IMG/VR virus record: IMGVR_UViG_3300032311_000050 | Location: 1 to 22,264 of that record | Reading direction: 5' to 3' (one strand) | Length of the DNA: 22,264 bases | Source of the DNA: a virus | The notes under the pieces: generated by a model | Database searches by the model: none | The model's input: the letters and a program-made list of their open reading frames with translations, nothing else | What the model was told of the DNA's origin: nothing | Program-made: the position numbers and the translations under genes | Shown: positions 2,057-21,919 of the stretch, piece after piece | How the letters are laid out: every line of letters starts with the position of its first letter | Numbering within the stretch: the stretch's first letter is position 1

Positions 2057-3223
2057 TTACGTTGTGGCAATGCCTAAAGTAGCGGCATATCCAGCCGCTA
2101 TAGATAGCCAGCTTGTTAATGAACCAACTTGTTTTGGTGAAGAGTAATATGTTGTATTTCCTAAGCCTAATTGACCTTGAGCGTTATTGCCCCACGACCA
2201 TAGCGTACCGTCTGTTTTTATGACAGCCGCAAAGTTAGTAAACATTTCTAAACTAGAAGACGAGTTTGACCAAGTAGTGAGTGAGCCAATTTGTTTTGGT
2301 GATGAATAGTTGGTTATGTTATTCAGACCAAGCTGTCCGCTAGTATTTCTTCCCCATGACCATAAAGTTCCATTGGTTTGTGTTGCTACACATGAATAAC
2401 CGCCGCCTTTACTAGATGCCCATGTTGTTAAAGACCCAACTTGTTTTGGGCTAGAGTAATATGTTGTATTTCCAAGCCCCATATTTCCAAAATTATTGCC
2501 ACCCCAAGACCACAAAGTACCATCAGTTTTAACGGCAATTGTGCTTAGCGTTAAACAACTAACAACAGACCAATTGGTGAGTGAGCCAACTTGTTTAGGT
2601 GAAGAATAATTAGTAGTATTTCCAAGGCCTAATTGACCAGAATTATTTCTAGCCCATGACCAAAGAGTTCCGTCTGTTTTAACTGCAACTGTATGATTAG
2701 ATCCACCACTTACGTTACTCCAAGTAGTTAAAACTCCGACCTGAACGGGAGATGATCTTGTTGTTGTGTCTCCCAAGCCAAGTTGTCCAAAACTATTGTT
2801 GCCCCAAGCATATAAAGCACCAGAGTTTGTAATTCCTAAAGCAAAATTACTGCCAGTAGAAACTTTAGACCAGCTTGTTAATGCGCCAACTTGCTTGGGT
2901 GAAGAATAATTAGTAGTATTACCAAGACCAAGTTGCCCAAAAGAATTTGATCCCCATGACCAAAGCGTTCCATCTGTTTTAATTGCGTAAGAATTAAAAT
3001 AATTAGAGGCAATTTTTAACCAAGTAGCTAACGACCCAACTTGTTTTGGGCTAGAGTAATATGTTGTATTTCCTAAGCCTAATTGACCTTGAGCGTTATA
3101 ACCCCAAGAATAAAGTTTTGGCCCAACGACAGGCCAAGTCCCTGCCGCAATGGCAGAGTTCACCTGTTGCATTGTCCAGATGCCTGAGTATTGAACGCCT
3201 GAGATGACTGTTGTTGATGGCAT
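2057..3223 (-). CDS. Seven-repeat RCC1 beta-propeller protein with GIWT-type N-terminal anchor
   Basis: 388 residues. The first 35 contain YSGIWTMQQVNSAIAAGTWP (13-32), a short motif I know from the ends of many phage virion proteins, probably a docking segment. Seven RCC1 units follow, about 50 residues each, each with a W(G/A)xNxxGQLGLGN core, the linker YSSPKQVGSLTTW and a KTDGTLWSW end. Seven matches the blade number of the RCC1 propeller, so a closed ring is likely. Blade four has WARN instead of WGxN, and blade five GNMGLGN instead of GQLGLGN. The repeats are also close at DNA level (47-bp and 41-bp exact copies). The protein is probably a secreted-surface-type virion part such as a tail tip or spike; the binding target is unknown. 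The gene is 18 bp upstream of the fusion-enzyme gene. Confidence 0.85.
   Translation of the reverse strand: MPSTTVISGVQYSGIWTMQQVNSAIAAGTWPVVGPKLYSWGYNAQGQLGLGNTTYYSSPKQVGSLATWLKIASNYFNSYAIKTDGTLWSWGSNSFGQLGLGNTTNYSSPKQVGALTSWSKVSTGSNFALGITNSGALYAWGNNSFGQLGLGDTTTRSSPVQVGVLTTWSNVSGGSNHTVAVKTDGTLWSWARNNSGQLGLGNTTNYSSPKQVGSLTNWSVVSCLTLSTIAVKTDGTLWSWGGNNFGNMGLGNTTYYSSPKQVGSLTTWASSKGGGYSCVATQTNGTLWSWGRNTSGQLGLNNITNYSSPKQIGSLTTWSNSSSSLEMFTNFAAVIKTDGTLWSWGNNAQGQLGLGNTTYYSSPKQVGSLTSWLSIAAGYAATLGIATT
2141..2187. repeat. 47-bp exact direct repeat, copy A (partner 3053-3099)
   Basis: Forty-seven identical bases occur here and at 3053-3099, in the last and first RCC1 units of the same gene. The copies are 912 bp apart, which is 304 codons, so recombination between them would remove six blades without breaking the frame. 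A second exact pair of 41 bp lies at 2433-2473 and 3033-3073, 600 bp apart, also a multiple of three. Confidence 0.9.
3053..3099. repeat. 47-bp exact direct repeat, copy B (partner 2141-2187)
   Basis: Partner of the copy at 2141-2187, in the first RCC1 blade. It overlaps the 41-bp repeat 3033-3073, whose partner is 2433-2473. It encodes the GQLGLGNTTYYSSP core of the blade. Confidence 0.9.
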
Positions 3224-3229
3224 GATGTT

Positions 3230-4375
3230 TTAGTAGAGTAGGGCTATGGTTTGATAACCACCAGCGGCTGTTTTCAGCCACGTTGTCAACGCGCCAACTT
3301 GCACAGGAGATGATCTGTATGTAGTGTTTCCACTTCCAAGCTGACCAGAATTGTTTTGCCCCCAAGTCCATAAAGTGCCATCAGTTTTTGTAACCACACA
3401 AAATCTAACTGCAACAGAACTCTGGCTCCATGTGGCTAATGCCCCAATTTGTTTTGGGCTGGAATAACTTGTTGTATTTCCTAGACCTAGTTGACCTTGA
3501 GCATTTCCGCCCCAAGACCACATCGTGCCATCAGTTTTAATTGCAATACAAAAATTTCCGCCAGCCGATGGTTTAGACCATGTAGTCAATGCACCTATTT
3601 GTTTTGGCGAGGAATATTGAGTTGTATTACCTAAACCCGATTGACCAGTTGCATTAGCCCCCCACGCCCAAAATGTACCGTCTGTCTTAACAGCAAAAGT
3701 TGATGAGCCGTCATATCCTGACGCAGAAACTAATAGCCAATTAGTCAGCGCCCCTATCTGTTTGGGTGATGAGTAGGCTGTAAGATTATTTTGGCCTAAT
3801 TCACCGTTATTGTTTTTACCCCACGACCAAAGAGTTCCGTCTGTTTTAATAGCCGTACTAAATTGATTTCCAGCGGATACATATGACCAATTAGTCAATG
3901 CCCCAATTTGTACAGGGCTAGATTGATTGGCAGTGGCTCCATTTCCAAGTTGCCCTTGACTGGCTCTACCCCAAGACCACAACGTACCATCTGTTTTGAT
4001 GGCTAGTGCATGATTGTCACCTGCTGAAATACTATACCAAGTAGTTAAAGAACCAACTTGTTTTGGCGAGGAATAGCTTGGGGAGTTATTTACACCTAGT
4101 TGCCCATAAAAATTAAACCCCCAAGACCATAACGTACCATCGTTTTTGGTTGCAAGAGTAAAAGATTGGCCTGTTGAAATATTAGACCAATCTGTAAGCA
4201 CCCCAACTTGCTTTGGGGATGAGTAGCTAGTTGTGTTGCCTAGGCCTAGACGTCCGTCGCCGCCGCTACCCCACGCATACAAATACGGGAAATACGTAGT
4301 CACACTCGTCTGCGGCCCGAGCGCATTAAAGCCGGGCTTGACGATACTTCCTAAATTGTATTGGCGTATGCTCAT
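3230..4375 (-). CDS. Seven-repeat RCC1 beta-propeller protein with KPGFN-type N-terminal anchor
   Basis: 381 residues. A short N-terminus with VKPGFNALGPQTS (12-24) is followed by seven RCC1 units whose cores read LYAWGSGGDGRLGLGN, LWSWGFNFYGQLGVNN, LWSWGRASQGQLGNGA, LWSWGKNNNGELGQNN, FWAWGANATGQSGLGN, MWSWGGNAQGQLGLGN and LWTWGQNNSGQLGSGN. This again fits a seven-bladed propeller. It is a paralogue of the next gene downstream, but its anchor resembles that of the partial gene at the window edge instead. Blade surfaces differ most in the loops after the conserved core (for example FNFY, RASQ, KNNN), as expected of a binding face. The gene is only 6 bp from its downstream paralogue. Role as tail tip or receptor-binding protein is inferred from fold and position. 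Confidence 0.85.
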   Translation of the reverse strand: MSIRQYNLGSIVKPGFNALGPQTSVTTYFPYLYAWGSGGDGRLGLGNTTSYSSPKQVGVLTDWSNISTGQSFTLATKNDGTLWSWGFNFYGQLGVNNSPSYSSPKQVGSLTTWYSISAGDNHALAIKTDGTLWSWGRASQGQLGNGATANQSSPVQIGALTNWSYVSAGNQFSTAIKTDGTLWSWGKNNNGELGQNNLTAYSSPKQIGALTNWLLVSASGYDGSSTFAVKTDGTFWAWGANATGQSGLGNTTQYSSPKQIGALTTWSKPSAGGNFCIAIKTDGTMWSWGGNAQGQLGLGNTTSYSSPKQIGALATWSQSSVAVRFCVVTKTDGTLWTWGQNNSGQLGSGNTTYRSSPVQVGALTTWLKTAAGGYQTIALLY

Positions 4376-18581: not shown

Positions 18582-20120
18582 TCAGTAGTACGCCGCAGAA
18601 CGACGTTTAAAAAATCTTGGTTCATCTGCCTCATCCGTGTCTAGCGTGATGAAGCCGCCTTGTCTGAATCGAAGCAGTGCTTGGCTGGTCGTGTCCACAT
18701 AGTCATCGTGTTCGCCAACTGGGAAAGATGCAACTTCTTCAATCACTTCGCGTGCCCAGCGAGTGTCGGGTGCCCACACCATACCAGAAGAAAACAAGTC
18801 CGCTATGGCCTGCACACGCACCATCTTATCGTTTCCACGGCTCGGTGTAAATTCTTGTACAGGGATACCCATCGCCCTGAGTTCCTGTATCAGTGGCCCA
18901 CCTGCCGCCTTTTTCTCCACAATGAAGGCATCGGGTTGCCATTCTTTCCAGTGTTTAAAGGCAGTTTGTTTGAGTTCTGGGAATGGGATTCGGTCTTTGA
19001 AAGCGTCAAGGAGGATAAGCTGGGGCTTGTCGTTCTCCTCCTCGTTGTACCAGACCCCCCAAGTAGTACAGGCAGAATAGTCGGAGGTTGTTTTGGTTTC
19101 ATGCGCCGTGTCCCATGACTGGATGATGTACTCACAAGTGGGCGGTTCTTTGGGCTCCCATATGCGCCAGTGCTTCCTTGAGATAATTGCCGCCGTGTCT
19201 GAGGTCGGCTGCTGCATGTACTGCGCGTTCCAGTACCGTGGATCCATTGAGGACTTGGCAGATTTCAGCGCCTCAAGCGGCCACTGCTCCGGCCAGAGAG
19301 ACTTCTCCTTCTCCGTGTTCTCGTGCAGGATGGCTGGCAACTCCACGATCTCCCAAACGGGGGAGTCAGGGTTACTCACCTGATACTGGATAAGCCTGCC
19401 AGTTAAGTCCAGCGGCCCCCAGCGCGTCATGATGACTATGATCGCGCCTCCCGGCATCAGGCGTTGCAAAGGGCCAGTCTGGAACCAACTCCACGCCGTG
19501 TCAAACGCTAGACGACTGTTTGCTTTTACGTCTTGTTCCGAATGTGGATCGTCAATAACAAACAAGTCAGCACCACGACCGGCAAGAGCGCCCCCAACAC
19601 CAGCCGCATAGTATTGACCGCCAGCAGCAGTAGACCATTTTCCAGCGGCCTTCTGGTCATCTGCCACAAGTGTTTGGGGGAATAGCTCATGGTATTGCTC
19701 ATCATCCAGTAAGTTACGAACCCGCCGTCCAAAGTCTTCAGACAGCGACGCAGTGTGCGTTCCCATGATAATCTTCTTGTTAGGGTAATTACCTAGGAAG
19801 AACGCAGGGAACAGATAAGAGGAGAACTCGGACTTACCCATACGTGGGGCAATGTTGATAATTACTCTCTTCTTTTTACCGTCAATCACATCTTGGAATA
19901 TCTTGGCCAGCTTCCTGTGGTGTGGCCCAACTTTGAATCCGGGGTAGACGTACTTGGCAAACTCAATCATGTTTGTACGACCGGCGTTGACGTTGTATCG
20001 CTTTTCTCTTTCTTCTAACATATCCATAAGCTCCACCTTCTCTGCCAGACTTAGCGTCGGGAGAGCTTTCTGGATGGCCTGAATCTCAGTTGGACTCAGC
20101 GTCAGGTCGTTCAGTTTCAT
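18582..20120 (-). CDS. terL: Terminase large subunit
   Basis: 512 residues. ATPase part: Walker A-like APRMGKSE at 91-98, Walker B with acidic end LFVIDDPHS (186-194), and the coupling motif IVIMTRW (228-234). Nuclease part: SWDTA with D337, FIVEKKAAGG with E402, and HDDYVDT with D472/D473, the expected acidic set of the RNase H-like nuclease. ATPase plus nuclease is the full-length form. It drives DNA into the head through the portal and cuts the concatemer. The ATG lies 35 bp inside the small-subunit gene with only a weak ribosome binding site, so coupling to the upstream gene is likely. Confidence 0.95.
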   Translation of the reverse strand: MKLNDLTLSPTEIQAIQKALPTLSLAEKVELMDMLEEREKRYNVNAGRTNMIEFAKYVYPGFKVGPHHRKLAKIFQDVIDGKKKRVIINIAPRMGKSEFSSYLFPAFFLGNYPNKKIIMGTHTASLSEDFGRRVRNLLDDEQYHELFPQTLVADDQKAAGKWSTAAGGQYYAAGVGGALAGRGADLFVIDDPHSEQDVKANSRLAFDTAWSWFQTGPLQRLMPGGAIIVIMTRWGPLDLTGRLIQYQVSNPDSPVWEIVELPAILHENTEKEKSLWPEQWPLEALKSAKSSMDPRYWNAQYMQQPTSDTAAIISRKHWRIWEPKEPPTCEYIIQSWDTAHETKTTSDYSACTTWGVWYNEEENDKPQLILLDAFKDRIPFPELKQTAFKHWKEWQPDAFIVEKKAAGGPLIQELRAMGIPVQEFTPSRGNDKMVRVQAIADLFSSGMVWAPDTRWAREVIEEVASFPVGEHDDYVDTTSQALLRFRQGGFITLDTDEADEPRFFKRRSAAYY

Positions 20121-20709
20121 CTGTTTCTTGTGTGTAAGTACTAACTTCTTCTATATCCTCGATAACATCAGCGTCTTGCACGCCCATGAACTTGGCCAGC
20201 TTGTCTTTGAGCTTGCGGTCGATTTCCTCATCCGTGAGGTCAGTCTTCTTGATTTCTATCTTGTCGGTGAAGAGGCCCACTTCGGTGACCTTACCAAGGG
20301 CTGTGAGCGCCTTAAGTCGTATGTTGGCGCTGGGGTTTTCGCATTCTTCCAACAGTTTGGCAACTGCGTAGCCACGAAGCTCCTTGGCCTGATGTACAAA
20401 CTCCCAGTCATAGGCAGTCAGCATCCCAACTAAATGTTGCACCGCAGCAGGCGTTTTGATCTGAGCTAGATGTTCGTGCGTGATTTCTGCTGGCGCTGAA
20501 GACACGAGGTTTGTAAAAGATGCGCGTGCTGCTTGAACTTCTGCGTTGCTGACCACAGTATTTGTATCTGCGGCCCCCATACTCTTAAGCCAGTCTGCTG
20601 TTTTTACTTTGGCGTCGATGGCATCCGCCGGATGTTCTTTTTCAAGCGGCGTAGGTTTACCAGAGTGGGCGACCACTTCCGGTTCAAAATCAATAAGGTG
20701 ATCTAACAT
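20086..20709 (-). CDS. Probable terminase small subunit
   Basis: 207 residues, first gene of the minus-strand block and overlapping the large subunit. The middle is helical (WEFVHQAKELRGYAVAKLLE, 102-121) and then NIRLKALTALGKVTEVGLFT (129-148) and DLTDEEIDRKLKDKLAKF (157-174), the arrangement usual for the C-terminal part of terminase small subunits: a helical oligomerisation region, then a segment GKxxxVxLF before a short amphipathic helix. The last 30 residues are acidic, rich in Glu and Thr. No clear helix-turn-helix is evident by eye. It would recognise the packaging site and stimulate TerL. An AAGGGA lies about 11 bases before the ATG. Confidence 0.7.
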   Translation of the reverse strand: MLDHLIDFEPEVVAHSGKPTPLEKEHPADAIDAKVKTADWLKSMGAADTNTVVSNAEVQAARASFTNLVSSAPAEITHEHLAQIKTPAAVQHLVGMLTAYDWEFVHQAKELRGYAVAKLLEECENPSANIRLKALTALGKVTEVGLFTDKIEIKKTDLTDEEIDRKLKDKLAKFMGVQDADVIEDIEEVSTYTQETDETERPDAESN

Positions 20710-20724
20710 TGGCGCATAAGTCCC

Positions 20725-20753
20725 TTGTACCTGCGATGCGCGGAGTGTATACT
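20725..20753 (+). promoter_or_regulatory. Candidate sigma70-type promoter for small RNA
   Basis: TTGTAC at 20725-20730 and TATACT at 20748-20753 with a 17-base spacer. The -10 matches consensus in five of six positions, the -35 only in three. It points away from the terminase genes toward the strong terminator at 20809. It lies in the leader of the minus-strand terminase gene. Confidence 0.45.
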
Positions 20754-20759
20754 ATTTCT

Positions 20760-20849
20760 AAGTGATGGGAAACTGTTGCTTCTCCTCGGTCGGGTTCCTC
20801 CGCCGTTCAACCCCCCAGTCTCAAGCTGGGGGGTTTTTTTTTTTTTTTT
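20760..20849 (+). ncRNA. Candidate small RNA with anti-Shine-Dalgarno motifs
   Basis: If the promoter at 20725-20753 is used, a transcript would start near 20760 and stop in the T tract after the hairpin at 20809-20835, about 85-90 nt. It has no protein reading frame with a ribosome binding site. It contains TCTCCTC (20781-20787) and TCCTCC (20796-20801), both complementary to Shine-Dalgarno sequences, in a region without obvious self-pairing. It resembles a bacterial trans-acting small RNA in layout, but no family is recognised. It could also be just a promoter-proximal attenuated leader. Confidence 0.35.
20809..20849 (+). terminator. Strong rho-independent terminator
   Basis: AACCCCCCAG (20809-20818) pairs perfectly with CTGGGGGGTT (20826-20835) around a 7-base loop and runs into 16 consecutive T (20834-20849). 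Direction is plus strand only, since no T tract follows on the minus strand. No protein gene ends before it on this strand, so it implies a plus-strand transcript starting between 20709 and 20809 or antisense transcription across the terminase genes. Confidence 0.9.
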
Positions 20850-21126
20850 ATTGACTTTGTCCAACGATTGACACAAATTTTTATAAAATTTTTTGGGGTA
20901 GGGTATTAGTTGTAAAGTACTAAATTGAGTTGCAGAGAATGGTTGGGGAATAGTGTTCATATGACGACGGGGGTATGCCCTGTATACGGGTTGGTGGGGG
21001 GTAGGTGGGGTCTAAGGTTCTCAGTTTTTACGGCTCTGTAGTACCCTTTAATACCCCTTCCATACAATAGAGGTATCGGTTCGGGGCACTTCGACCCTGA
21101 CGATACGTTCTTGAAAGGAACACACC
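20850..21126. other. Divergent intergenic control region
   Basis: No gene seen in about 277 bases. The region is A/T-rich at first and then G-rich on the plus strand (GGGTAGGTGGGG-like runs near 20995-21010). It contains two related motifs in opposite orientation: 20901-20922 read on the minus strand, and 21039-21057 on the plus strand, both TAGTAC, then TTTA, then AATACCC. TTGACA occurs at 20868-20873 without a matching -10. Probably holds the promoters for the minus-strand late block and the plus-strand early genes; not proven. Confidence 0.5.
21073..21106 (+). promoter_or_regulatory. 5' leader hairpin before first plus-strand gene
   Basis: GTATCG (21073-21078) pairs with CGATAC (21101-21106), and the inner GGTTCG can pair in part with CGACC. 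A TACAAT at 21063-21068 could be a -10 box with a poor -35, which would put the hairpin at the very 5' end of the mRNA. Such a structure could stabilise an early mRNA. The ribosome binding site lies free after it. Confidence 0.4.
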
Positions 21127-21634: not shown

Positions 21635-21691
21635 CCTGTCCAACCAAAATCCAAATACGAATCACTCTCATAACCAACTAGGAGAATCACC

Positions 21692-21919
21692 ATGCGTTCA
21701 ACACACTTCCCCCTGCTCAAAGACTGTGGCATCCTCACCATCAAAGGCATAGAGTGGCGCTTGCAAGAGTACTACCCCAACCCATCCATGCGGAACTACA
21801 AGTTCCTGACTGTCTACAACATCAGGCTCAGCCTCAAAGAAACCTTTGCCTCAGACGAGGCATTCGAGGCGTGGCTTGAGCGAGAGCAAGCACCAGTTCA
21901 GCAGTCATTATTCCGCTAA
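21692..21919 (+). CDS. Unrecognised small early-type protein, 75 residues
   Basis: Preceded by TAGGAGAATCACC, a strong ribosome binding site. Product starts MRSTHFPLLKDCGILTIKGI, continues EWRLQEYYPNPSMRNYKFLT and VYNIRLSLKETFASDEAFEA, and ends QSLFR. Mixed beta/alpha with many aromatic residues; a compact domain is likely. The final QxSLFR resembles the PCNA/sliding-clamp binding ends (QxxLF) of replication proteins, but that match is too short to trust. I do not recognise the family. It is followed by two hairpins, so it is an independent transcription unit or the end of one. Confidence 0.7.
   Translation: MRSTHFPLLKDCGILTIKGIEWRLQEYYPNPSMRNYKFLTVYNIRLSLKETFASDEAFEAWLEREQAPVQQSLFR

Follow-up and report, generated by a model that had tools for sequence, protein, structure and literature searches.

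An uncultivated-phage record from IMG/VR quite probably contains a gene for a phage small RNA (sRNA) which acts in trans on several of the phage's own early genes by masking their Shine-Dalgarno (SD) sequences. The window we have analyzed is the entire record (22,264 bases), a partial genome whose minus strand carries the structural genes and terminase. The phage appears to be uncultivated, as are the IMG/VR phages in which we have found the same sRNA, and the genomes of its relatives measure about 60 kb. As read from the sequence, the sRNA would be about 75–90 nt long, and its unit includes a promoter, three hairpins and a terminator (Table 1). The unit, its structure, its conservation, its complementarity to early and not to late genes, and the co-variation of both partners can all be observed directly in the sequences; the co-evolution of seed and targets is the main evidence for the role we suggest.

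Table 1. Position of the sRNA unit, its neighbour gene and a candidate target in the window
Feature	Position	Strand	Basis
terS candidate, conserved neighbour gene	20086–20709	-	directly upstream of terL
sRNA promoter: TTGTAC (20725–20730), 17-nt spacer, TATACT (20748–20753)	20725–20753	+	conserved spacing
Hairpin 1, AAGTGATGG GAAA CTGTTGCTT	20760–20781	+	MFE and centroid folds, arm swap
Seed UUGCUUCUCCUCGG, with unpaired core CUCCU (20782–20786)	20776–20789	+	conservation, accessibility, covariation with early-gene start sites
Hairpin 2, variable sequence and conserved pairing; holds TCCTCC (20796–20801)	20787–20805	+	arm swap
Hairpin 3 and T16, intrinsic terminator: 11-bp stem with 7 G-C pairs (20809–20835), T16 (20834–20849)	20809–20849	+	arm-swap energies
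Candidate target: AGGAGAA (21680–21686) before ORF at 21692	21680–21919	+	interaction energy

The unit can be placed in the sRNA class by its own promoter, its compact structure and its intrinsic terminator. The initial annotation had described a promoter-like pair with 17-bp spacing, a near-perfect terminator with 16 T and a compact transcription unit opposite the terminase genes. The coordinates of the pair are exact, the terminator is seen as described, and the unit appears again opposite terS in related phages. Of 88 distinct versions, 85 have TAYACT, and 78 have TTG with a spacing of exactly 17 nt to it. The -35 box is weak, with three of six consensus positions, so this promoter is absent from the list produced by a generic promoter scan; the promoter call is based on conservation across versions, not on box strength. 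In many relatives the -10 box lies within a 10-bp palindrome (AGTGTACACT or AGTATATACT), while the window has AGTGTATACT at 20744–20753. This palindrome is conserved beyond what a sigma-70 -10 box requires, and a repressor site timing the sRNA is possible.

The unit is bordered by the terS candidate, whose start region and the sRNA promoter overlap on opposite strands, and by the first early ORF of the plus strand (21127). No tRNA was found. A protein-coding reading was rejected: the plus-strand frame from ATG 20764 reads through the terminator, and sequence turnover follows the stems. A minus-strand terS leader was also discarded, promoter spacing and U-tract fit the plus strand only. The start of terS resembles the 16S tail, which we consider a coincidence because its codons vary. 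After the terminator there is a 16-bp imperfect inverted repeat, TGTCCAACGATTGACA (20858–20873), which in several relatives is a perfect palindrome, TGTCTAACGTTAGACA. In many relatives the terminator is followed by this inverted repeat, an AT-rich block and a G-rich run, which together are a probable operator or early control region. Elsewhere in the window, two adjoining proteins with RCC1-like repeats (2057–4375, minus strand) are probably tail or fibre related.

The order of the fold is the same in the members of this family: hairpin 1, which probably begins at the 5' end of the transcript, a short single strand, hairpin 2 and the terminator. The single-sequence fold of the window sRNA is more stable than those of its shuffled versions (z -3.15). 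Between hairpins 1 and 2 the motif UUCUCCU is almost invariant. Among 60 non-redundant versions UUCUC is invariant or nearly so, with CTC in all 60 and CTCC in 57, and the mean probability of CUCC being unpaired is 0.91 over 94 versions. Two anti-SD motifs had been pointed out. The first, TCTCCTC (20781–20787), is the conserved seed, judging from these comparisons; the second, TCCTCC, does not stand, being enclosed in hairpin 2 and recurring in only 6 of 94 versions.

Hairpins 2 and 3 change in sequence from phage to phage but stay paired. This can be seen when partner halves are exchanged between phages and pairing or energy is compared. The outer eight pairs of hairpin 1 are formed in 396 of 480 cases with their own partners, versus 359 ± 5.6 with swapped ones. 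The summed MFE of hairpin 2 is -356 with its own 3' halves and -176 ± 13 with swapped 3' halves, and that of the terminator goes from -927 to -689 ± 16. An alignment built without structural information has a covariation score of 0.299, versus 0.181 ± 0.013 for shuffled alignments, none of 500 shuffles reaching the observed value. Because of length differences in hairpins 1 and 2, RNAalifold finds only three pairs on the full MAFFT alignment, and we used the arm-swap tests, a covariance model and a selected alignment in its place. In many versions (L083, L085, L087, L096, L105 and others) an extra hairpin such as TTGGCCTTTGGCCAA is inserted within hairpin 1, and two sRNAs that are nearly identical elsewhere may differ in having it or not.

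About 160 loci were collected by means of their terminase proteins. At least 94 distinct sRNA versions are found in IMG/VR phages, with one clear copy per genome, and the unit opposite terS is kept in relatives with TerS identities as low as about 60%. Where the flank of a relative is long enough for checking, the unit is nearly always found upstream of terS. Conservation thus extends outside the terminator in relatives; its absence had been named beforehand as grounds for abandoning the proposal. With a covariance model derived from 23 of the 94 versions, matches were obtained in 49 of 50 whole records (some had supplied sequences for the model itself), and nearly every record has a single copy. 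The exceptions are a record with a second weak match and a binned bacterial assembly with extra weak matches. An independent DNA-pattern scan of all viral contigs gave at least 77 new loci. Among the matches listed, 73 of 77 have the sRNA within 200 bp of a terS homologue; the remaining four have no terminator and were rejected as chance hits.

No clear copy of the sRNA was found in five isolates with a related terL (DSL-LC04, 023Pt_psg01, HTVC023P, HTVC027P and CRP-901). A match in MinM2 (22.6 bits, E 0.003) is away from terS and terL and was treated as due to chance. An 83.8-kb contig from a Chitinophagales MAG bin (L165, JAGYJT010000012.1) has a divergent copy upstream of a related terL; it is probably a phage contig, its link to the host being uncertain. 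Rfam 15 gives no match at the gathering threshold, the best one below it being anti-hemB (23 bits versus 49.5), and our literature searches, which covered open-licence papers, found no description of this RNA.

The predicted targets are early-gene start regions. In near-complete relatives the seed matches starts of plus-strand early genes 3–15 kb downstream, for example CCAAGGAGAAAGCAAATG, and in those with complete genomes the matching sites are on the same strand as the sRNA. Perfect matches of at least 10 nt to the phage's own seed are found in 133 of 1023 early starts, versus 61.8 with seeds from other phages. None of the 391 starts called on the opposite strand has such a match. Some ORFs in this set, which comes from a home-made gene caller, are spurious; a stricter comparison is limited to five complete genomes and to ORFs of 100 aa or longer, where GGAGAA precedes 32 of 96 early genes versus 11 of 161 structural genes. 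The initial annotation had suggested that the RNA could repress late or host mRNAs early in infection, and had pointed to ribosome binding sites such as those of the capsid genes. In relatives the complementary starts are early ones on the strand of the sRNA, and the figures just given do not support capsid genes as targets. Early and late genes use different classes of ribosome binding sites: AAGGAGAA is common at early starts and mostly missing from opposite-strand starts, and GGAGAA is rare at late ones (L087, L088, L129, L134, L142).

Cofolding of the full sRNA and mRNA in one genome reaches -10 kcal/mol or lower at 18 of 47 early and 1 of 37 late starts, differences being smaller in three other genomes. 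Conserved families of predicted targets include a SNF2/DEAD-type helicase, an amidoligase-domain protein and a protein weakly similar to Gam/Gp157. A 102-aa protein with an HExxH motif, recognized from sequence only, is a further predicted target, its start region having a 14-nt match in the phage of the L134 contig, and the start of DNA polymerase is matched in some phages only. The window record contains almost none of its own early region. The only candidate visible there is AGGAGAA, a 7-nt perfect match with a computed energy of -9.1 kcal/mol, which is weak when taken alone; the regulon is therefore documented in relatives and would extend to the window phage by analogy.

Complementarity to SD sequences is weak evidence by itself, since early genes may favour strong SDs anyway. 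In relatives, an accessible seed is complementary to distant start regions and is kept so by covariation. At early starts the residual energy of a phage's own seed, compared with seeds from other phages, is -1.36 kcal/mol (permutation sd 0.20) and is negative in 34 of 37 contigs. When orthologous genes from phages with different seeds are compared, the mean contrast is -0.71 kcal/mol (permutation sd 0.12), with 261 negative and 85 positive values by seed-type pair; as contigs share ancestry, permutation and sign-test p-values are too small in all these cases and should not be taken literally. Common ancestry alone, on the other hand, does not predict complementarity. When the rule is made symmetric, there are 122 gene pairs in which each phage's own seed has the better fit by 3 nt or more, and none in which the swapped seeds do.

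Individual cases illustrate this behaviour. Across phages, the seed/target pair CUCCUCGG/CCGAGGAG is replaced by CUCCUCAG/CTGAGGAG or CUCCUGAUG/CATCAGGAG, and within one gene family CTCCTCGG/CCGAGGAG is found versus CTCCTCAG/CTGAGGAG. Other examples are CTCCTGATG/CATCAGGAG and CTCTCTCCTCA/TGAGGAGAGA. Compensating changes fall both inside and outside the SD. In one phage, with TTTCTCTCTCTTGG/CCAAAAGAGAGAAA, the core itself is gone, the seed lacking CUCC and the target GGAG. The fit is poor in some phages: no match reaches 9 nt in G033 or G036, and G008 and G040 have GCUUCUCC seeds and mostly GGAGAAAGC sites, so that a bulge is needed.

These changes help to evaluate other readings. The core UCUCCUU resembles an anti-SD and early genes have strong SDs, so the seed might be a mimic of the 16S rRNA tail which binds any strong SD, of host or phage, with no dedicated regulon. 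This is unlikely: matches extend past the SD on both sides and follow phage-specific changes in the seed, the pair without CUCC and GGAG included. Host mRNAs might also be the main targets, matches to the phage being minor: characterized phage sRNAs, lambda PreS among them, have their targets in the host (PMC12197685). We find this quite improbable, since phage early starts track the seed through many changes, the opposite of the pattern expected if a phage avoided its own sRNA.

Complementarity has no direction, and the same pairing might stabilize or activate early mRNAs, or these might serve as sponges for the sRNA. We give little credence to such an outcome, since the SD, and in many cases the start codon too, lies within the duplex. 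A duplex in this position is the standard geometry for blocking 30S binding. Palindromes in and beside the region, and its location at the terminase boundary, would be compatible with a DNA element (an operator, origin or packaging signal beside terS) in which the terminator merely ends transcription. We regard this as extremely improbable: stems keep pairing amid sequence turnover, the seed core is unpaired and promoter spacing is fixed.

By comparison with known RNAs, an SD-masking sRNA of this kind would work like Yfr1 or alpha-r14, although it lacks their defining motifs and matches no Rfam family. Yfr1 is a chromosomal RNA of cyanobacteria, 54–69 nt long, with two hairpins (PMC2190773, PMC6778093); between them, an unpaired region of 16–20 nt has an invariant ACUCCUCACAC which contains CUCCU (PMC2190773). 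It inhibits translation initiation of a target (PMC2190773, PMC6778093). Both RNAs share a 5' hairpin, an unpaired conserved CUCCU motif and a 3' terminator hairpin. Unlike Yfr1, the phage RNA has three hairpins, the motif UUCUCCU with only about 6 nt unpaired instead of ACUCCUCACAC, and seed flanks which change along with the targets. In alpha-r14/NfeR1 of rhizobia, CCUCCUCCC is repeated in the unpaired regions of all three hairpins (PMC10746234). Three hairpins, an anti-SD motif and variable stems with a conserved motif are common to both, but the phage sRNA has a single seed, between hairpins 1 and 2, and CCUCCUCCC is not found in each of its hairpins.

Phages also encode antisense RNAs which act on phage mRNAs, such as P22 sar, P1/P7 c4 and lambda OOP; sar and c4 block translation initiation (PMC12197685). 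The present RNA is likewise phage-encoded and matched to phage mRNAs, here by complementarity only. Each of those RNAs is described as acting on a single mRNA related to lysogeny or immunity, whereas here many early genes are matched, and no tyrosine integrase was recognized in 13 large contigs. Small RNAs of virulent phages are a further parallel. The virulent Pseudomonas phage PAK_P3 has sRNA1 and sRNA2, of about 100 nt, which accumulate late; the only earlier examples named in that 2016 study are the band C and D RNAs of T4, whose functions it states as unknown (PMC4933390). These RNAs, compared here by description and not by sequence, have no demonstrated target regulon.

In the mechanism we propose, transcription would start from the sRNA's own promoter at the foot of hairpin 1 and would end at the strong terminator. 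Hairpins 1 and 2 would leave the core of seed UUGCUUCUCCUNGG unpaired between them, and this seed would pair with the SD region, often up to the start codon, across the early-gene regulon. The resulting duplex would keep ribosomes off early mRNAs. Pairing 3' of CUCCU would require the opening of hairpin 2, which counts against this scheme. Structural genes would be spared, as they are on the opposite strand and have a different class of ribosome binding site, so the sRNA would lower early protein synthesis and leave late synthesis untouched. Since the SD and start codon would be masked, we infer repression rather than activation; transcription, pairing in the cell and timing are likewise inferred.

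We suggest more tentatively, as a possibility somewhat short of probable, a phage-wide translational switch from early to late genes: an RNA of about 80 nt would silence a dedicated class of early ribosome binding sites, late genes on the opposite strand would keep running, and seed and regulon would co-evolve phage by phage. Virulent phages have yielded few small RNAs, and most of these have no known role. This family supplies a mechanism, a list of targets and natural compensatory changes in many phages, which make RNA control of phage development directly testable. If our proposal is true, these phages would be a case of a single RNA evolving jointly with a set of ribosome binding sites.
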